The notes below the pieces were generated by a model. The model made no database searches. It was not told the DNA's origin and worked only from the letters and a program-made list of their open reading frames with translations. From a virus, in the IMG/VR virus record IMGVR_UViG_3300045131_001736, positions 1 to 64,000 of that record: DNA of 64,000 nucleotides; one strand, given 5' to 3'. Position 1 is the stretch's first letter, and every line of letters starts with the position of its first letter. A program made the translations under genes and the position numbers. This document shows positions 55,479 through 64,000 of the stretch, one piece after another.

Positions 55479-56231
55479 CTAACTGAAATTTTCAGAAATT
55501 ACACTTACCCCACGTTTTTGTATAACCTGAGATGAACATCGATTTCCAAATATAATTGATTCATTAATATTATTTGTTTCCAAATACTTTGTAGTGAATC
55601 CTGCTACAAAAGTATCACCTGCTCCTGAGATATCCATTATCTCAACTTTATCAGTTGGATACATATTGTTTAAATACATACATCCATCTTTATCTAATGT
55701 GATTATTAGTTTTTCTAAAATCCATTCATTATTTTCAATAAATGATTTATTATTTTGATATTCGGTTCTGTTTAATTTAATGAACTTTAAATCAGTGCAC
55801 CATTCTCCTAATTTTTTTTTAGTATCACAAATTGTATTAGGGTGATTAAATGCTATTTTAGCAATATCAGTATCACTTAGAAATCCTTTGTTATAATCCG
55901 ATATGACTATCATATCAAAATCATAAAAATTTATTTCAGAAAGTGTATTACCAATAGGCGGAACTACATCATCAATATCAACTCGTAAAAGTAAATGATT
56001 AAAACTTTCCTCAACATATCTCTTTTTTACAATCAATTGAGTATTACAAATCAATTCAGTTTTACAACCCAATGCTTCTAAATTTTCTTTAACATTATAA
56101 GCCATACCACCATTGGTGATTGTATGTGATTCTATAAAAACAGGTGCAGGTCCTTCAGGTGATAATCGTGTAGCTTTTCCATAAACGAATTCATCTAAAC
56201 ATCCCTCACCTATAATTAATACTTTACTCAT
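55479..56231 (-). CDS. HldE-type heptose-7-phosphate kinase (PfkB family)
   Basis: The 250-residue protein starts KVLIIGEGCLDEFVYGKATR with RLSPEGPAPVF (22-32), a motif specific to the kinase half of HldE/RfaE, and has the PfkB signature ISGAGDTFVAGF with catalytic Asp206. The known reaction is phosphorylation of D-glycero-D-manno-heptose 7-phosphate at C1. It is shorter than the usual kinase half (about 310 residues), so some lid or dimer elements are missing. It overlaps the adenylyltransferase gene by 8 bases; the two halves of HldE are separate here. Another PfkB sugar substrate cannot be excluded, but the RLSPEGP motif favours heptose. Confidence 0.75.
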   Translation of the reverse strand: MSKVLIIGEGCLDEFVYGKATRLSPEGPAPVFIESHTITNGGMAYNVKENLEALGCKTELICNTQLIVKKRYVEESFNHLLLRVDIDDVVPPIGNTLSEINFYDFDMIVISDYNKGFLSDTDIAKIAFNHPNTICDTKKKLGEWCTDLKFIKLNRTEYQNNKSFIENNEWILEKLIITLDKDGCMYLNNMYPTDKVEIMDISGAGDTFVAGFTTKYLETNNINESIIFGNRCSSQVIQKRGVSVISENFS

Positions 56232-56613
56232 TTGTTAATATTTTAGTTGTACTGAAATCATCCATTCGATTAAAATACACAATTGATTTTGCGTATTGTT
56301 CTCCCACTATTGGTTTATTTTTATAATCAGACCCAATTACAAATATATCAGGGTTATATGTTTTAATTACATTTTCTAATAATTCAGCTGAATCAAATAT
56401 AACTACTTTACTAACTCCTTTAATTCTTTCCAAATTATACTTTCGTTCTTCTTCAGTATGGAACGGTCTATCTTCTCCTTTTAATTCCTTTACTCTCCTA
56501 TCGGAATCAATTCCAATAATAACAATATCACCAAAGGCAGATGCGAACTCAATCATCTTAAAATGCGCATGATGTAAAACATCAAAACATCCATTTAACC
56601 AAACCTTTTTCAT
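56224..56613 (-). CDS. HldE-type nucleotidylyltransferase (ADP-heptose synthesis)
   Basis: The 129-residue protein starts MKKVWLNGCFDVLHHAHF, the HxxH-type nucleotidylyltransferase motif with His14 and His17, followed by IGIDSDRRVKELKGEDRP and FVIGSDYKNKPIVG. This is the compact adenylyltransferase half of HldE/RfaE, which makes ADP-heptose from heptose 1-phosphate. Its overlaps with the kinase (8 bases) and heptosyltransferase (4 bases) show an operon. No phosphatase (GmhB) or isomerase (GmhA) gene is seen, so the host must provide these. A glycerol-phosphate cytidylyltransferase role is a lesser alternative. Confidence 0.75.
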   Translation of the reverse strand: MKKVWLNGCFDVLHHAHFKMIEFASAFGDIVIIGIDSDRRVKELKGEDRPFHTEEERKYNLERIKGVSKVVIFDSAELLENVIKTYNPDIFVIGSDYKNKPIVGEQYAKSIVYFNRMDDFSTTKILTNE

Positions 56614-57761
56614 AGAAACTTTTCTAATTCATTAATAACCATCTGAGATGTAATTGCTTTAGTACATTCAAATTGCCTATCCGTACCTTTATGGTCTGGA
56701 CACCAATTCCAATCACCAGCATCTAATTTTAATCGGTTAAAGCATCCACCACATTTATCTTTAGGTGAAGTTATTCTAACACAATCTTGCATTTCTGCCC
56801 AATCATATGAGAATCCACTAATCAATACCGTCTTTGTACCCAATGCCCAACTTAACCAACTTAACCCACTACCAATACCAATGAATGCTTTTGATTTTCT
56901 CATTTCATCCATTACTTTTTCCAAAGAACCGGCTGGGTGTTTGACTACTCCAGTTGGGTGTTTATTACCCATATAATCATTATTCTCTTGTGATAATAGT
57001 TTAACTGTATAACCTTTATCATTTAACCAATTCACTACTTCTTGCCAACCATTTGGGTTATTCCAATACTTAGATTGAGCAGTTCCATGTATTGCTATTG
57101 TTATTAACTTATCATCTTTAACAATATCTGATGATGGTAACTTTGGTTTTATTTCTTTATATGGTAATCCCAATATATCAGAACCCATTTTTTGCATTGT
57201 TTGGGATTTAAAATCGTTTGGATTTTTTCTGTTATTTACACTACCATCTTCATTATAGAATAAACCAACAGTATACATTGCGTATAAATTTTCAACACTT
57301 TGACCTGGTTTTACAAATTCTATATTTGGATATTGTGACTCTAACATTTCGTTATGAAATGTAGATACAATTAATTCACAATTATGTACTTTCTGAAATT
57401 CGTCAAAGTATGGAAACCATGCTAATGTATCACCCAATGCTTTTGATGATAGTGCTAGATAAACTCTCTTATTAGTTGCGGTATAATCATGTTCAAAAAA
57501 TAAAGTATTACCTTCCCATATTTCAATTCTCCAATCTATAAAATACTCAATATTACATTTAGCCCAAGTATTGTTTGATAATTCGGTTGTGAATAAAACA
57601 TTACCATTACGTTTGTTTATAAACTTAACATTGTATTTACCCGTTTGGTTTCCCAATACTTCAGCCCAAGGACCATTTACGAAATGATAATTTACTTTAT
57701 TTCGTACTTCAACAATGTTATTTAAATTTTTAGTTAATTTATCGTAAATCATTAATTCCAT
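56610..57761 (-). CDS. Autotransporter-type protein O-heptosyltransferase (BAHT/TibC-like)
   Basis: The 383-residue protein has an N-terminal beta domain (VNYHFVNGPWAEVLGN, KYNVKFINKRNGNVLF), a GT9-like core with SSKALGDTLAWFPY (~105-118) and IAIHGTAQSKYW (223-233), GIGSGLSWLSWALG (295-308), and a Cys finger with Cys337, Cys340, Cys354 and Cys366. This N-terminal domain plus C-terminal four-Cys iron finger is the plan of the TibC/Aah family, which transfers heptose from ADP-heptose to Ser in autotransporter adhesins. The genes for ADP-heptose lie directly after it. The probable targets are the Ser/Thr-rich fibres; the target is inferred. It overlaps the upstream fusion gene by 10 bases (ATG at 57761). 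Confidence 0.75.
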   Translation of the reverse strand: MELMIYDKLTKNLNNIVEVRNKVNYHFVNGPWAEVLGNQTGKYNVKFINKRNGNVLFTTELSNNTWAKCNIEYFIDWRIEIWEGNTLFFEHDYTATNKRVYLALSSKALGDTLAWFPYFDEFQKVHNCELIVSTFHNEMLESQYPNIEFVKPGQSVENLYAMYTVGLFYNEDGSVNNRKNPNDFKSQTMQKMGSDILGLPYKEIKPKLPSSDIVKDDKLITIAIHGTAQSKYWNNPNGWQEVVNWLNDKGYTVKLLSQENNDYMGNKHPTGVVKHPAGSLEKVMDEMRKSKAFIGIGSGLSWLSWALGTKTVLISGFSYDWAEMQDCVRITSPKDKCGGCFNRLKLDAGDWNWCPDHKGTDRQFECTKAITSQMVINELEKFL

Positions 57762-59914
57762 TTTTTTACTTCTCTATCAATAAGAGAAAATCCATCTGCT
57801 TGTTTAACATACATTTTATTTGTAGTATATCGTAATTTAGATTCTTTATTAAACACATCAGTTAACCATAAATCATATCCCTCCCATAGGGTATCATTAA
57901 ATCTATCAATCCACCAACTCTTTGTTCTATTTGGTATTAGATACGCATGTGCTAAATCTTGGTTTGATGCAGTTTTACTGAATAAATCATCAATGTATTC
58001 TTTACTTCTGGAATTATTGTTTGATAATCCAATAAAGTAAACATCATCTCTTTCAGAAATAAAACATGCTTTATGAACTGCTTCAACAAATTCTTTTAAT
58101 CCAGTGAATATAAACGCATCAGCTTCAAATACTAATGTATAATCAAATTCATCATCCATAGCTTCTAATGCTCCCCTATGTGCGTTAAAGCACCCATAAT
58201 GCCTACCCGTTAATGGACCTAATCCATTCCCAAAGTTTCCCGGCTTATCCGATATCTGATTTGGTCTTTTACAAAAATCAGATGGTGGTGTTCCATCAAA
58301 TGGAGTATTTACAATTGGTTGATACACCATTCCATAACTTTCCAATTGTTTTAGTGATTCTGAACTAATTTGTTCTCTCAAATCATTTGGCTTAGTCATC
58401 AAATGTTTAATTTGAATCTTTGGTTTTTTTCTAACAAATGAACGATATACGTGCTTTGCTTGATTATAAAAAAATTCATCAGCTGCTCTAGTAACCCCCG
58501 GAAAGAAACTTCCACCATAATCATCTCCACTAATAACACCACCCGGTTTTACTTTATGATACCAAAAGTTTAAATCGGATTTTAAAGAATCATAAGTATG
58601 ACCCGCATCCAACATAATAAAATCAATTGAGTTATGTTGAAATTGATTTGATGCGTTTTCAGATGTATCCTTTATTACGTTAAATAATTTTGAGTTATTA
58701 CTTAACATAGTATTTTCCATAAATTCTGAAAATATATCCCCACCAAATCCACCAACTATTGTATCATGTATTTCTTCACCATCGGTACCTTTCCAAGTAT
58801 CAACAGTTGTAAATTTAATATCTTTATTAGAATCTTTAATTAAGGTAGCCATATGATTGGTTGATTTACCCAACCATGCACCCAACTCAACAAATACATC
58901 ACCATCGGTTCCATTTTCAACCATTTCATTATACAAATGTTCATATGAAAACCAACCAGGAATTTCATTAAATTCAGGTTGTAGTTTTTCTAATATAATT
59001 TGTTTGGTTTGATTTAGGTTATCATCGATATAAGTAACCAATTCATTATTATCATATGAATCCAAATATGTGTGTAGTTTTCTGAATATAGATGGTAATC
59101 CATATCCCAATGCCTCTTTAATAGATAATGGATTTAATTCCAATTTAGAACTAAAGTAAAACATATCCGATGCTTTGTAGAATTTATCTACATCACTACG
59201 TTCACCCCATACAATACAATTATCAGGTTTGTGTTTCATTATTGGTCCCCAATATGATTCAAAGTTCATAGCTTGGTTTCCGATAAAATGAAATTTAATT
59301 TTATATTTTTCTAATAATCTAGCTACGTTGAATATTTCACCCTGATTCTTACCTTCAGTAAATAATCCAACCATAAGAACATGCTTCCAATCAGATTCAA
59401 ATCCCAATTCGTTTTTGAATTCGTTTTTATCATACTCAATAGTTTCTATTGGATAATCCCATACACGTGTATCTACTCCCACCAATTCAAATCTTCGTCT
59501 ACTCCATTCAGATACTAAAACATATCTATCTGGATGATATTTGATTTCATTTGGATTTGTATGAGAACCATGTGTAGATGCTACAATATAGTAATTTCTA
59601 CTATTGTCAAAAATAGTATCTAATATATTGTGAGCTAAAAAATGTTCGGGGATTTCCGTAAAATGAATTATGTTTGGTTGAGTTGATTTAATAATATCCA
59701 CAAGTTCGGATTTATTATCACCCAATGTGTACAACTTACATAAATCAGCTATTTGATTCTTTTGTACTACAAAGGCATCACCAGAGTGATTGTTTACCTC
59801 AACTACCTCAATATCAAATTTATCTTTAAAGATTTGAATTTGCTTTAAAAGGTATTGTGGCATCCCACCAGTTGAGAGATGGGATGCTATATATAACAAT
59901 TTTTGTTTTGACAT
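57752..59914 (-). CDS. GT4 - methyltransferase - GT25 three-domain fusion
   Basis: The 720-residue protein joins three units. Residues 1-300: GT4-type glycosyltransferase (LLYIASHLSTGGMPQYLL, GLFTEGKNQG, ELNPLSIKEALGYGLPS). Residues ~339-490: class I SAM methyltransferase (VFVELGAWLGKST, VDTWKGT, DFIMLDAGHTYDSLKSDL, PGGVISGDDY). Residues ~572-715: GT25-type glycosyltransferase (HYGCFNAHRGALEAM, LVFEADAF). It probably builds and caps a glycan: add sugar, methylate, add sugar. The first gene of the cassette, it precedes the heptosyltransferase. Acceptors are not shown; phage fibres are the proposed ones, host surface glycans are an alternative. Confidence 0.75.
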   Translation of the reverse strand: MSKQKLLYIASHLSTGGMPQYLLKQIQIFKDKFDIEVVEVNNHSGDAFVVQKNQIADLCKLYTLGDNKSELVDIIKSTQPNIIHFTEIPEHFLAHNILDTIFDNSRNYYIVASTHGSHTNPNEIKYHPDRYVLVSEWSRRRFELVGVDTRVWDYPIETIEYDKNEFKNELGFESDWKHVLMVGLFTEGKNQGEIFNVARLLEKYKIKFHFIGNQAMNFESYWGPIMKHKPDNCIVWGERSDVDKFYKASDMFYFSSKLELNPLSIKEALGYGLPSIFRKLHTYLDSYDNNELVTYIDDNLNQTKQIILEKLQPEFNEIPGWFSYEHLYNEMVENGTDGDVFVELGAWLGKSTNHMATLIKDSNKDIKFTTVDTWKGTDGEEIHDTIVGGFGGDIFSEFMENTMLSNNSKLFNVIKDTSENASNQFQHNSIDFIMLDAGHTYDSLKSDLNFWYHKVKPGGVISGDDYGGSFFPGVTRAADEFFYNQAKHVYRSFVRKKPKIQIKHLMTKPNDLREQISSESLKQLESYGMVYQPIVNTPFDGTPPSDFCKRPNQISDKPGNFGNGLGPLTGRHYGCFNAHRGALEAMDDEFDYTLVFEADAFIFTGLKEFVEAVHKACFISERDDVYFIGLSNNNSRSKEYIDDLFSKTASNQDLAHAYLIPNRTKSWWIDRFNDTLWEGYDLWLTDVFNKESKLRYTTNKMYVKQADGFSLIDREVKKWN

Positions 59915-60306: not shown

Positions 60307-60693
60307 TTATTCAGGTTGTATTGGGTAAATATATGGAGTTGTATTTGTAATATCTCGTAATGCTTGTCTATAAGTTGCCCACTCCAATTTCTTTTCAGCT
60401 GATAGTGGTGAATCATTAAATTGAGTCCAATCGGATTCAGATAATAGATTATTTCGTTTCAGTCTAACCGTAAATAAATCCCGTTCAGCTTGTTCATCAT
60501 TAGTAAGTGGGTTTTTAGTATGTACACTATTTACATATTTACATCGAGTACTAATTGCCTCTTGCCACTCATCATAGGTGAGTTCAATTCGATTTTCCGT
60601 AGGAATATACTTAATATCCCAAACATCAGTTGGGTAAAATCCAGTGTAATTCCCATCAGAATCGTATGTTGCAAAAATTTGTCTTTCAGTCAT
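60307..60693 (-). CDS. Tail-fibre assembly chaperone-like protein
   Basis: The 128-residue protein ends with RNNLLSESDWTQFNDSP and WATYRQALRDITN, the tail-assembly chaperone (APC-type) pattern also seen at 2926-3378. The first part (ATYDSDGNYTGFYPTDVW) resembles the start of phage fibre chaperones. It follows the receptor-binding fibre by 26 bases, the common place for such chaperones, and is likely to act on that fibre. Confidence 0.75.
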   Translation of the reverse strand: MTERQIFATYDSDGNYTGFYPTDVWDIKYIPTENRIELTYDEWQEAISTRCKYVNSVHTKNPLTNDEQAERDLFTVRLKRNNLLSESDWTQFNDSPLSAEKKLEWATYRQALRDITNTTPYIYPIQPE

Positions 60694-60719: not shown

Positions 60720-63700
60720 TTATCCCGTTGGAAGATTACCAATAGCTATCCAATACCCATCAACACTATCTAATACTAAACTAACACCAGATGTGGTAAG
60801 GTTATATATATGATTATATCCATTTGAACCATTTGAACTTCTATAAGATGCACAAGTTACAACCGGTGGTGAACCAAATGTTACAGGGAATGTTACGTTA
60901 GCAGAACTATTTATTCTTCCCCATTGTATAATACTACCATCTGATAATTTTTGGTAATTATTTGTAGACATTGAACTAGCAACCGTATTTGTTTGGTGTT
61001 GGTTTCCTAATCCAATAAGGTTATCGGTATAAGTATATGCAAACCTATTTGATGAGTTACCAATATTGTACAATGAATCAGATTCAGGTATAATATCACC
61101 CTTTGAATTAATAGCTGTTGAGGTATCAACCCCAAGACCAACTGTTTTTTCAAAATATGATATACCACCGGCTGCTTTAAGTACTTCTTGATTAGCTGAA
61201 CCTGCTGGTTTTCTTGGTATTCTAACATAGGTATCAGGTGTTGATACTACTTGAATACCACCGGCTTTAATCTCAACGAAATTGGATGGAACAGATACAT
61301 TTAATATAGTATCGTATGTTGGTGTATTTGCTAAAGTTGGCCCAACAGTATGTGATTGGTATGTAAATGAATATGAATTAATACTGGAACCAATATTTGC
61401 TCTTTGACCCGAATACCCATAAAATCTAATTGAATATCTAAATCTAATATTACCAGTAGATGTTAGATTCATTGAGCGCGTTACACCAGTTTGGGCAGAA
61501 ACATTATTTTGATAACCACTTATAGTGTTGGTTGAAATATATGTCCAAGTACCATCATTATGTGATATAATATCATCTGAAACATAGTTATGAACTCCAG
61601 GTACAGAAAATGTATATACCCATTCATCGGTTTTAATAATTTCAACACTATCAACTAATACCAATTTAATACCATTACCATCTTTGATGTTAATCATACT
61701 TTTACCAGCAACTAATTCAACAGTCTTTATTTGTTTATTATCGTTTAACCAAAATCCATGCGAATCAGATACTCTAATAGTTTTACCACCGGCTGATACT
61801 TTGTAAACTTTATCAACTTTTCTCTTTTTAATTTTAGCTATTTCAAATTCACTAAATTTGTTTACTTCAGTATTATCTAATTTATCATTCCAACTCCATG
61901 CTATTATTTTTTCACCTTCAACAACATCTTTAGCAAGAATAGTTTCACCAGATGATAATATAATTTTAGTATCACCAGTTACGGATACAAAACTTTCAAG
62001 TTTTACGTTGTGGGTTAATATACCATTAACATAATAAGTATGCTTACCAGATACTCTAATGTTATAAACATCATCGGTTTTCTCATTTATAGTTATTGAT
62101 GTTATCTCAACTTCTTCATTTTCTGAATTTAGGAATATATCTCCAACATTTATTTTATCAGTTGTTTTAATACACCAAACACCATTTTGTTTAATAATAT
62201 GTTTGTGTGAGTGTGTACATTCAATTAATCCATTATTTATATTGTAAATTTCATTATCAGCATATGATTTGATATCCAACACCTCTTCAATTGTTTTTTC
62301 GGAATCGGATATATGGGTTGCAGTCCAATCATTTTCTTCGGAATATTTTGGTGTTAATGAATCAATATCTAATGATTTAATAAAATCACCAATTTGAATA
62401 TCTTTAATTTGTTTGAATGAACCATCACCCATTTCAATTAGTGATGTTCCAACTAAACACGTTCCACCTCCCCCTTCTTCTATATATTCTCCGGTATAAT
62501 AATTACCAGCATTATATGAACTAACAGCTGCGGCTGTTCCAAGTAAAGTTCTACCCACAACAACACCAGTAGAAATATTAACTGCTTCTAAATTTAATTC
62601 TGCGTATGCAACAGATGGTGATGAATACCCACCATGGAATTGCCCATTGAATGTAGGTAAATACGATGGGTATGATGTGGTATGACTAACTCCTGCTGGA
62701 ATTGATACAGATACGGCTGGTATATTTAGTGCAACTTCAAGTGCTCCTGCTGCTGTAACATTATATGAACCCGTTGATGGTAATGATACCATATAACTCG
62801 AATAAACAAAATTGGCATTAGATGTATTTGTTGTTACCGATTGTGGTGTTGGATATACAACCCCCGAACCCGTAAACTGAAAGTATTTAACATCACCTGT
62901 GGTTGTTGTTAATTCATTTGAAGGTGATATAATTACCTTTTTTTCACTACCAGTATAAAATTGTAATTCAGGTAAAGATGGGTCAAATATTATTTCACTA
63001 TTATCATCACGTAAATTACCACTATCAGCATCAATAATCCAATCTCCGATTCTACCATCAGTTGCGTTAATACTACCAGATAAACCTGCATTATTAGCGT
63101 TTACATTTCCATTAGCATCAACAGTAAAATTATATCTAATTGGATTTGAACCAGAAATTATTCCTATGTTAATAGCTCCTCCATTTATTTCAGAACCATT
63201 AATTGTTGAACCTTGAACGTTTCCTGAGAAATTAACACCATCACCCGTATAGTTCAAATATGCACCATCTTTACTTCGTAATGAGAATAACGGGTCATCT
63301 GACCCAGATGGAAATCCTAAAAATACACCAACCTCATCAAAACTTTGACTTAATTGCCCCATTGAAAGGTATGGTTTATCGGATTGATTTAATGTTGAAC
63401 CTGATGTTGATAATCGCAATCCCTCACCAGAAATTATTCTAAATTCACGACTACCCGCTGATAATGAACCTTGTGTATATGTGTAATCACCATTGGTATT
63501 GGGATAATAATAAGAGGCACTTGCGGCGGAATTAAATTTAATTGTTTGACCATATGGATTTGATGCTGATAGAAATAATCGAGTTTCATCTTCAGAAATT
63601 CCATAAATTTTCATTGCAGGGAAATTCAAAACATTACCAATACCCAATACAGCTACATCAAATGCTTTTATAATATGAGATTTTAAATCACTTGGTACTT

Positions 63701-64000
63701 CTGGATATGCACTTTCAGGTTGGTCATAAAGTAATTCTTGTATAAAATCATAATATGATAATGGAAAATCACCAGTTTGCCTTACTTCTAAATAATTTGC
63801 ACCAGATGGCCATGCAATATATGAGTCTAAAGAAGAAGATACGACTTGCAGTGATGATGTTGTGTGGAATGCAATTTGATAAGATGAACTATCTGCATAT
63901 AATCCATTTGATAAAAATAATTTTGAATTACCAATTTCACTATTACTTGCACTATTACTTGCGCTTAATATTCTATGATTCGTAGTAAGTGTACCAAATA
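60720..64000 (-). CDS. Receptor-binding tail fibre with two Hint domains (5' end outside window)
   Basis: The frame stays open to the window edge, so the 5' end is missing; a TTG at 63647 lies inside the gene and is not the start. About 1090 residues are visible. Numbered from that TTG: residues 1-395 are beta-rich fibre sequence with GDWIIDADSGNLRDDN and NGSEINGGAIN; 397-547 and 555-697 are two Hint domains; 698 on is fibre again, with GDIIPESDSLYNIGNSSNRFAY and a C-terminal SDGSIIQWGRINSSANVTFPV...YWIAIG domain, typical of gp53-type receptor-binding tips. If both Hint domains leave, GGGGT would join DGTWTY. The next gene is its likely chaperone. Receptor binding is inferred from the C-terminal domain and neighbours. 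Confidence 0.85.
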   Translation of the reverse strand, partial: FGTLTTNHRILSASNSASNSEIGNSKLFLSNGLYADSSSYQIAFHTTSSLQVVSSSLDSYIAWPSGANYLEVRQTGDFPLSYYDFIQELLYDQPESAYPEVPSDLKSHIIKAFDVAVLGIGNVLNFPAMKIYGISEDETRLFLSASNPYGQTIKFNSAASASYYYPNTNGDYTYTQGSLSAGSREFRIISGEGLRLSTSGSTLNQSDKPYLSMGQLSQSFDEVGVFLGFPSGSDDPLFSLRSKDGAYLNYTGDGVNFSGNVQGSTINGSEINGGAINIGIISGSNPIRYNFTVDANGNVNANNAGLSGSINATDGRIGDWIIDADSGNLRDDNSEIIFDPSLPELQFYTGSEKKVIISPSNELTTTTGDVKYFQFTGSGVVYPTPQSVTTNTSNANFVYSSYMVSLPSTGSYNVTAAGALEVALNIPAVSVSIPAGVSHTTSYPSYLPTFNGQFHGGYSSPSVAYAELNLEAVNISTGVVVGRTLLGTAAAVSSYNAGNYYTGEYIEEGGGGTCLVGTSLIEMGDGSFKQIKDIQIGDFIKSLDIDSLTPKYSEENDWTATHISDSEKTIEEVLDIKSYADNEIYNINNGLIECTHSHKHIIKQNGVWCIKTTDKINVGDIFLNSENEEVEITSITINEKTDDVYNIRVSGKHTYYVNGILTHNVKLESFVSVTGDTKIILSSGETILAKDVVEGEKIIAWSWNDKLDNTEVNKFSEFEIAKIKKRKVDKVYKVSAGGKTIRVSDSHGFWLNDNKQIKTVELVAGKSMINIKDGNGIKLVLVDSVEIIKTDEWVYTFSVPGVHNYVSDDIISHNDGTWTYISTNTISGYQNNVSAQTGVTRSMNLTSTGNIRFRYSIRFYGYSGQRANIGSSINSYSFTYQSHTVGPTLANTPTYDTILNVSVPSNFVEIKAGGIQVVSTPDTYVRIPRKPAGSANQEVLKAAGGISYFEKTVGLGVDTSTAINSKGDIIPESDSLYNIGNSSNRFAYTYTDNLIGLGNQHQTNTVASSMSTNNYQKLSDGSIIQWGRINSSANVTFPVTFGSPPVVTCASYRSSNGSNGYNHIYNLTTSGVSLVLDSVDGYWIAIGNLPTG
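61557..61985 (-). other. Second Hint (intein-like) domain, Ser in place of Cys1
   Basis: 143 residues (555-697 from the TTG at 63647). SVTGDTKIIL with Ser555 where Cys1 is usual; block B SDSH with His630; block F VYTFSVPGVHNYVSDDIISHN ending His696-Asn697. The following residue is Asp698, not Cys, Ser or Thr. There is no homing endonuclease. Ser1 and a non-nucleophile +1 mean canonical splicing is uncertain, but Asn cyclisation and cleavage remain possible. Confidence 0.85.
62007..62459 (-). other. First Hint (intein-like) domain with Cys1
   Basis: 151 residues (397-547). CLVGTSLIEMGDG with Cys397; block B ECTHSH with Thr478 and His481; block F VYNIRVSGKHTYYVNGILTHN ending His546-Asn547. The +1 residue is Val548. 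Flanked before by GGGGT and after by the 7-residue linker VKLESFV leading into the second Hint domain. The short length fits bacterial intein-like domains, which lack the endonuclease. Confidence 0.9.

Follow-up and report, generated by a model that had tools for sequence, protein, structure and literature searches.

Two intein-like domains of different classes in the tip of a phage tail fibre

The window analysed here is a stretch of 64,000 nt, positions 1 to 64,000 of the 88,559-bp IMG/VR virus record IMGVR_UViG_3300045131_001736. It contains the end of a tail-fibre gene, near whose C-terminus two complete intein-like (Hint) domains stand back to back. The gene lies at 60720-69089 of the record and encodes a product of 2789 aa, of which the window holds only the last 1092 codons (60720-63998), the open reading frame (ORF) running on to 69089. 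Coordinates are positions in the window unless another record or locus is named, and the fibre and both Hints are on the minus strand. The product is called a fibre because it ends in a Gp53-like_C domain (60735-60950; Pfam PF21882, 30.8 bits, cut-off 24.9) and matches PHROG tail-fibre families; a receptor-binding role would follow from that identity.

The tandem Hint region

The two Hints occupy 62459-61557. Along the 2789-aa chain, Hint1 runs from C2211 to H2360-N2361 (62007-62459) and Hint2 from S2369 to H2510-N2511 (61557-61985), with the linker VKLESFV (61986-62006) between them and a GGGGT stretch (62460-62474) before Hint1. The tip region around them was delimited by alignment: its upstream half, GDWIID... 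through ...YIEE (62475-63047), is homologous in 10 aligned relatives, and its downstream half, DGTWTY... NFVEIKAGGIQVVS..., lies at 61131-61556. A first-pass annotation, made from the sequence alone, had given these two complete domains with correct coordinates and boundaries, and our Pfam and profile matches agree with it. Its C397, N547, S555 and N697 are the right residues but were counted from an internal TTG of the ORF that leaves the window; in the full chain they are C2211, N2361, S2369 and N2511.

Both domains are recognised by sequence. Hint1 matches PT-HINT (29.0 bits, Pfam cut-off 27.7) and the structure of BUBL1 BIL2 (E about 2e-5). Hint2 matches Intein_splicing (36.1 bits, cut-off 35.8), and a profile built from eight Hint2-type sequences matches solved inteins with E down to 1.5e-9. 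The block A, B and G residues used by inteins, whose roles are given in the available text of PMC4031507, are all present in both Hints. The residue that follows each domain (+1) is Val after Hint1 and Asp after Hint2; as had been stated at first pass, neither is a splicing nucleophile. The residue before Hint1 (-1) is Thr. Both Hints have a G+C content of 0.27-0.28 against 0.34-0.36 in the surrounding fibre, with similar third-position G+C.

Structure models point the same way for Hint2 and, less firmly, for Hint1. An AlphaFold2 model of 633 residues, from GDWIID past NFVEIK and built on 16 alignment rows, has a mean confidence (pLDDT) of 62.9 and a predicted template-modelling score (pTM) of 0.45. 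Within it, ten-residue pLDDT means across Hint2 are 66-95, with confident strands on both sides, and Hint1 stays below 45 because the alignment held no Hint1 relatives. The top Foldseek matches of this model are BIL2 of BUBL1, the Clostridium thermocellum bacterial intein-like (BIL) domain and DnaB inteins (E 1.2e-8 to 5.4e-8). Hint1 was also modelled alone (pLDDT 69.5, pTM 0.67), and the first match of that second model is again BIL2 (1.1e-7). This second model was built with class I rows (defined below) as its alignment and is therefore weaker evidence than the sequence match of Hint1.

The tandem is not an assembly artefact, since it is carried by eight IMG/VR records with eight different metagenome numbers. 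These records show no differences from one another over the 5,041 bp compared in six of them and the 3,863 and 4,220 bp compared in the other two. One of them is 270,865 bp long, and the virus is therefore a jumbo phage. The arrangement is as unusual as had been supposed: only the window phage, one of 70 fibres examined, has two Hints in one fibre.

A different close tandem was seen in the 484-kb genome of an uncultured phage (LR756508.1, 142633-151361; L055). Here two canonical-looking inteins lie 13 residues apart in a gene that we take to be portal-like, with the extein SVLEGARRTWKQL and with Ser and Thr at +1. The window phage is therefore not the only one with Hints in close tandem; a fibre tip with two unlike Hints that both lack a +1 nucleophile was met in no other phage.

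Two classes of Hint

Hint2 belongs to a class of Ser-type Hints (class I) found in fibre tips. Scans of IMG/VR with the downstream flank, its alignment, the Hint2 alignment and the upstream flank returned further fibres with a single Hint2-type Hint near the C-terminus (fetched loci carry L-numbers). In the 16 fibres that were aligned end to end, the Hint position is constant, between a common upstream region and W...NFVE. Clustering at 95% gave 30 distinct domains of 135-151 aa from uncultured phages, Hint2 counted in, with a mean column identity of 53%. Three features are present in 30/30: Ser1, the expected N-terminal nucleophile (S2369 in Hint2; 61983-61985); the block-B motif S/TxxH (S2441-D-S-H2444; 61758-61769); and the terminal HN, the expected C-terminal cleavage residues (H2510-N2511; 61557-61562). 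In a codon count covering 23 domains, Ser1 is TCN in all of them.

Part of this conservation could reflect how the domains were found. The Hint2-alignment scan used the block-B motif and the stretch before HN as patterns, and block B was therefore partly selected for. The 16 Hint fibres found through a far-upstream segment (12 distinct domains), for which no Hint motif was used in the choice, all have Ser1 and HN. Relatives with only degenerate motifs, which the first-pass annotation had named as grounds for rejecting its proposal, were thus not seen for the Hint2 class. The +1 residue varies across the 30 domains (P in nine, V in six, T in four, A in three, S in three, I in two, F in two, D in one), being Ser or Thr in 7/30 and Cys in none. 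Taken together, the sequences indicate that Hint2 is an old resident, a family-wide domain of fibre tips. Cellular or prophage copies of the fibre Hint were also looked for; the 24 loci returned, 23 of them haloarchaeal by title and one labelled Mollicutes, were set aside as ordinary inteins from their organism and identity.

The class I Hint is more constrained than the tip around it. We compared codons in eight pairs of fibres, which are not all independent, L110 being used twice. Nonsynonymous divergence (dN) is lower in the Hint than in the upstream flank in 8/8 pairs and lower than in the downstream flank in 7/8, the exception being L157/L161. The ratio of dN to synonymous divergence (dS) is below 1 in the Hint in 8/8 pairs (range 0.11-0.53). 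Together with the invariant motifs, this places the catalytic residues of the Hint2 class under strong constraint, which fits the self-processing proposed at first pass. Decayed intein relics are ruled out for class I by the invariant motifs together with dN/dS. The pair L108/L113 shows a sharper local pattern: dS is only 0.07 in the Hint but 0.64 and 0.55 in the two flanks, and the Hint DNA is 93-98% identical, with identity falling at the Hint ends to mostly 50-78% in the adjoining blocks (one at 85%) and returning to 77-98% farther out. The pattern in L100/L102 is the same but less sharp (Hint dS 0.125 against 0.34 and 0.61). The plateau in L108/L113 could reflect either shuffling of the tip around the Hint or movement of the Hint.

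Hint1 belongs to another class. A class I profile search of the fetched loci found Cys-type Hints (class II) in six ORFs directly downstream of Hint-bearing fibres (L161:4977-5669, L157:4974-5684, L040:4865-5590, L156:4325-5068, L069:2256-2978 and L042:1594-2325). These encode small tail proteins with a C-terminal Cys-Hint, laid out as MA..TSGAISL, a Gly-rich stretch, Cys1-Hint-HN and a short tail. Two tail-region proteins of Phage NCTB have the same layout, GGGG/C...HN/AVMVAKK and GGGGGG/C...HN/APVDQKH, where slashes mark the Hint ends. A search with Hint1 ranks 8/8 class II Hints (32-55 bits) above every class I Hint (best 24.2 bits; Hint2 12.5 bits), and the best match, in L161, is 32% identical from end to end (BLAST E 3e-16 within these few sequences). 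Tandem duplication is thereby ruled out as the origin of Hint1, all class II Hints being closer to it than Hint2 is. The expected N-terminal nucleophile, C2211 (62457-62459), is invariant in 9/9 class II rows. Block B, T2292-H-S-H2295 in Hint1 (TxxH; 62205-62216), has Thr in 9/9 rows and His in 6/9, and reads TWEQ in L161, L157 and L040. Class II relatives end 3-26 residues past HN, and the C-flank of Hint1, VKLES, resembles by eye the tails VEEDL and VQQEL.

Cultured phages, too, have class II Hints. In INPHARED, tblastn with the L161 Hint matched 43 records (39 Erwinia, 2 Dickeya, 1 Yersinia and NCTB), and the L042 Hint matched 11 (8 Vibrio phages, 2 Erwinia and NCTB), the Vibrio phage matches being annotated as helicase or P-loop genes. 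Five Erwinia and Yersinia phage proteins are fibre-like, 477-480 residues long, and end in Gly/Cys-Hint with T-H-E-H, HN and a 10-residue tail; their +1 residue is Thr in 4/5 and Val in 1/5. They are annotated as 'virion structural protein' or 'putative tail fiber protein', except for 'hypothetical protein' in SNUABM_18. The five come from Erwinia phages Alexandra (gp112; L273 2514-3956) and Yoloswag (gp103), two SNUABM phages and fHe-Yen9-02; Alexandra gp112 has collagen repeats by Pfam, and the 10-residue tail is conserved (such as TDIVAKAEKK). Gly stands at -1 of the class II Hint in 6/6 small proteins, 2/2 NCTB proteins and 5/5 cultured-phage proteins. These jumbo-phage tail proteins (the NCTB 'intein domain', Alexandra gp112, Yoloswag gp103) share with window Hint1 its class, the tail region and a short C-flank. 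They differ in that their Hint is C-terminal with Gly at -1, whereas the window Hint1 lies inside the fibre, between a Thr at -1 and, beyond the linker, a second Hint.

The class II alignment, run against ten phage records, matched two strongly, both of them sources of its own rows: the L157 record, in the separate protein, and the 270-kb record of the window phage, in Hint1 and Hint2 only. The single-Hint relative L201 has GGGGGT-SFPGIS immediately before its Ser-Hint; in the window phage, GGGGT, Hint1 and VKLESFV stand in that place. We infer, as the simplest history, that a class II module entered directly before the resident class I Hint. From these comparisons Hint1 appears to be an extra insertion of another class than Hint2, and the two are best not treated as a unit, as they had been at first pass.

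Fibres without a Hint

The Hint is an optional part of such fibre tips. From 118 fibres sharing the segment AKIAIFEESFVKNTINVG, 80 were kept and 70 were examined, ten near-copies having been dropped by equal scores (L194-L199, L202-L205). A class I Hint is present in 16/70 (12 distinct domains) and none was detected in 54/70; three of these 54 are uncertain, as L255 and L257 end at a contig edge and L259 stops early. Over the 54 fibres the class I profile gave only one weak match (2.3 bits), and therefore none was recognised as carrying a decayed Hint. A tree of 59 distinct upstream segments explains the distribution of the Hint with no fewer than 4 gains or losses, against a shuffled mean of 11.1, and 0/500 shuffles are as low as observed. 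The Hint is thus an optional tip insertion, clustered by descent, with several gains or losses.

Empty sites were sought in seven pairs by leaving the Hint out and scoring the two halves, separately and joined, against 60 shuffles of the target. Three pairs, involving two Hint fibres, show a two-sided empty site: L271/L226, L271/L214 and L268/L223. Their upstream halves score 117-127, downstream halves 209-234 and joined halves 314-326, against shuffle maxima of 83, 66 and 104. For L271 (Hint at 585-721) the alignment with L226 stops at 588 and resumes at 724, corresponding to L226 positions 459 and 464. Three pairs are one-sided: L193/L200 and L201/L200 match upstream only, the downstream half of L201/L200 lying within the shuffles, and L207/L253 matches downstream only. 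In L224/L248 neither half rises above the shuffles.

When the window fibre is compared with L200, its upstream half reaches a score of 100 (63 at most in 60 shuffles) and its downstream half 39 (shuffles up to 64). L200 has no Hint start in the 63 residues between its last matched position and the contig end, yet as an empty site it is half supported only, its downstream half being no better than chance. L081 was also tried as a Hint-less relative and was given no weight, its alignment being weak (12 bits) and strongly biased. The first-pass annotation had proposed searching Hint-less relatives for a direct join of GGGG to GTWTY. Such relatives exist, and both flanks match for two Hint fibres; the loops at the clear empty sites, however, differ in length and sequence from Hint-bearing loops, the window fibre was matched in its upstream half only, and a GGGG-GTWTY join was looked for in Hint-less relatives and not found.

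Cultured phages with the window fibre were sought by tblastn against 50,697 records; none contained it, whether the query was the upstream flank, the C-terminal part (60720-61556) or a 90-aa upstream segment; the Hint pair matched three weak records only, and the class I Hint of L100 a single terminase. In its terminase the window phage shares 55.7% identity with Microcystis phage Mel-JY01 and 54.7% with Flavobacterium phages 'immuto'. Directly downstream of the fibre, a 128-aa ORF (60307-60693) looks like a small tail-assembly chaperone. The genes at 55479-59914, beside the fibre, resemble by eye a sugar kinase, a cytidylyltransferase and glycosyltransferases, and possibly serve sugar modification of the virion.

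Possible self-processing of the fibre tip

We consider it rather probable that the two Hints of the fibre tip, though different in origin, are both autoprocessing domains resembling type A BILs and remove themselves by cleavage or splicing. This reading builds on the observed identity of the domains, the motif conservation and constraint of the Hint2 class, the Hint-less relatives and the separate kinship of the two Hints. From these we infer that the Hints react, which outcome would dominate and that it would occur during virion maturation. The likelihoods given here and below to the several readings overlap.

In its available text, PMC4031507 describes type A BILs as ending in His-Asn without a +1 nucleophile and as mainly cleaving; splicing is possible as well, by attack of the freed amine on the N-terminal thioester. 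Hint1 fits this description, and so does Hint2, except that Ser1 would form an oxygen ester. Once Hint2 has folded, an N-to-O acyl shift at Ser2369 would place Val2368 in ester linkage, and cyclisation of Asn2511 would free Asp2512. Without a +1 nucleophile the canonical branched ester could not form, and the Hint would therefore leave by one of two routes. If it were cleaved off at both ends, the tip would be nicked, although its halves might stay together; if the freed amine attacked the ester, the halves would be ligated. Hint1 would act likewise on the GGGGT thioester and the junction at V2362. The first-pass annotation had expected the product GGGGT-DGTWTY. The linker, however, aligns with fibre sequence before the single Hint of relatives, and two independent splices would therefore give GGGGT-VKLESFV-DGTWTY.

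Comparison with known systems places the fibre Hints closest to BILs. Like the type A BIL of C. thermocellum (PDB 2lwy; Foldseek E 2.7e-8 for the fibre model), they combine a Hint fold, indicated for Hint2 by model and Foldseek and for Hint1 by sequence and a modest model, with a terminal His-Asn, no conserved +1 nucleophile (Val, Asp, and varied across class I) and a variable host protein. Their setting is hypervariable, the Hint being less divergent than the tip flanks in the 8/8 (upstream) and 7/8 (downstream) pairs given above. They differ from that BIL in lying in phage tail fibres, with class I beginning in Ser and keeping one tip position, and with two unlike Hints in tandem. Hint1 has the Cys1 for a thioester; the Hint2 class has Ser in 30/30, and Hint2 is therefore BIL-like and not a strict type A BIL. 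BUBL1 BIL2 of Tetrahymena (PDB 6tmm, 6y75) is the best solved match of Hint1 by sequence and model, and the first match of the fibre model. BUBL proteins join ubiquitin-like domains; Pfam reported no such domain in the window fibre.

Other Hint families fit less well. The class 1 mini-intein of Synechocystis DnaB (PDB 1mi8) shares the fold (template-modelling score 0.85 of the target) and the block A, B and G residues. Of what defines canonical class 1 inteins, the fibre Hints have Cys or Ser1, TxxH and HN but lack Cys, Ser or Thr at +1 (Ser or Thr occurs there in 7/30 class I domains), and they sit in a variable, often Gly/Ser-rich fibre loop and not at a conserved host-protein site. Both are internal, unlike the C-terminal Hint of Hedgehog proteins, which a sterol-recognition region follows. 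A polymorphic toxin of PT-HINT type would have a toxin domain after the Hint; here Pfam finds only Gp53-like_C downstream.

Several observations weigh against self-removal. Pro at +1 in 9/30 class I domains may hinder ligation, the block-F His is unconserved in class I, and Gln replaces the block-B His in 3/9 class II rows, which together suggest that some members would be slow or one-sided. The published BIL mechanism has a thioester, which is more reactive than the ester that Ser1 would give, and we know of no tested Ser1 BIL. Hint1 offers no sequence variation on which constraint could show, and its model quality is modest. The pairs tested gave no two-sided empty site for the window fibre, and a view of the two flanks as a single domain enclosing the Hint would rest on L271, L268 and strand patterns.

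The low Hint dS in L108/L113 would agree with a moving passenger no less than with a domain that serves the phage. The Hints could be selfish mini-intein-like elements, tolerated through self-removal and moving among fibre genes with no phage role, which we think unlikely. Their patchy presence on the tree, the identity edges in L108/L113 and, less sharply, L100/L102, and the class II Hints in helicase-type genes of Vibrio phages would all agree with this. No Hint-sized insert contains an endonuclease, and movement would therefore need recombination. The fixed position in the 16 aligned fibres, the lack of a homing endonuclease in domains of 135-151 aa and the lack of the conserved +1 nucleophile that a splicing parasite needs to be harmless all argue against it.

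It is similarly unlikely that the Hints stay uncut in the mature fibre, as folded insertion domains that aid tip folding, trimerisation or binding and whose catalytic residues are structural only. Hint2 is predicted to be well folded within the long chain, the window fibre has no +1 nucleophile and 3/9 class II rows lack the block-B His, as this would allow. Purely structural residues sit poorly with Ser1, block-B His and HN invariant in 30/30 class I domains that average 53% column identity, and the many homologous fibres without a detected Hint imply that the Hint is dispensable for such tips in general.

Conjugation is improbable. In this reading another chain, a second tail protein or the host surface would offer an amine or hydroxyl that captures the (thio)ester at Ser1 or at the Gly-rich stretch, and the fibre would become covalently linked. 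The C-terminal, Gly-preceded class II Hints (compare Hedgehog-type processing) and the kinship of Hint1 to BUBL1 BIL2 could suggest this, but no acceptor is known, the -1 residue in the window fibre is Thr, and Gln replaces the activation-assisting His in three class II rows. As a long shot, phage tails might use Hedgehog-like conjugation, with class II Hints activating a Gly end as a thioester for a partner amine while the Ser-Hint opens or rejoins the fibre tip; if so, the window fibre with both Hints could be cut, rejoined and linked at its tip to another chain or to the host surface.

Hint domains in tail proteins are already present in databases, NCTB records naming an 'intein domain'. 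No Hint in a tail fibre is described in the available text of PMC3556154, PMC5259590, PMC5526547, PMC7765530, PMC7824862, PMC7412058, PMC4031507, PMC7664689, PMC6293099, PMC12386605, PMC6892783, PMC8228797, PMC8790156, PMC4422536 or PMC3326045, and within that literature we did not meet the fibre-tip class, its constraint or the two-class fusion.

BIL-type domains are known mainly from bacterial secreted proteins, where their role is unsettled. The fibres described here provide a Ser1 Hint class tied to one fibre-tip position and constrained more than the surrounding tip, with natural Hint-less fibres as controls, while in cultured jumbo phages there are tail proteins that end in Hints of a second class. 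This makes it testable whether fibre tips are processed by intein chemistry, and what an organism gains from a Hint that cannot splice canonically. When fibre genes are read, the encoded chain may thus differ from the mature chain, and trimming or rejoining of the tail tip after synthesis is probable in phages of this kind.

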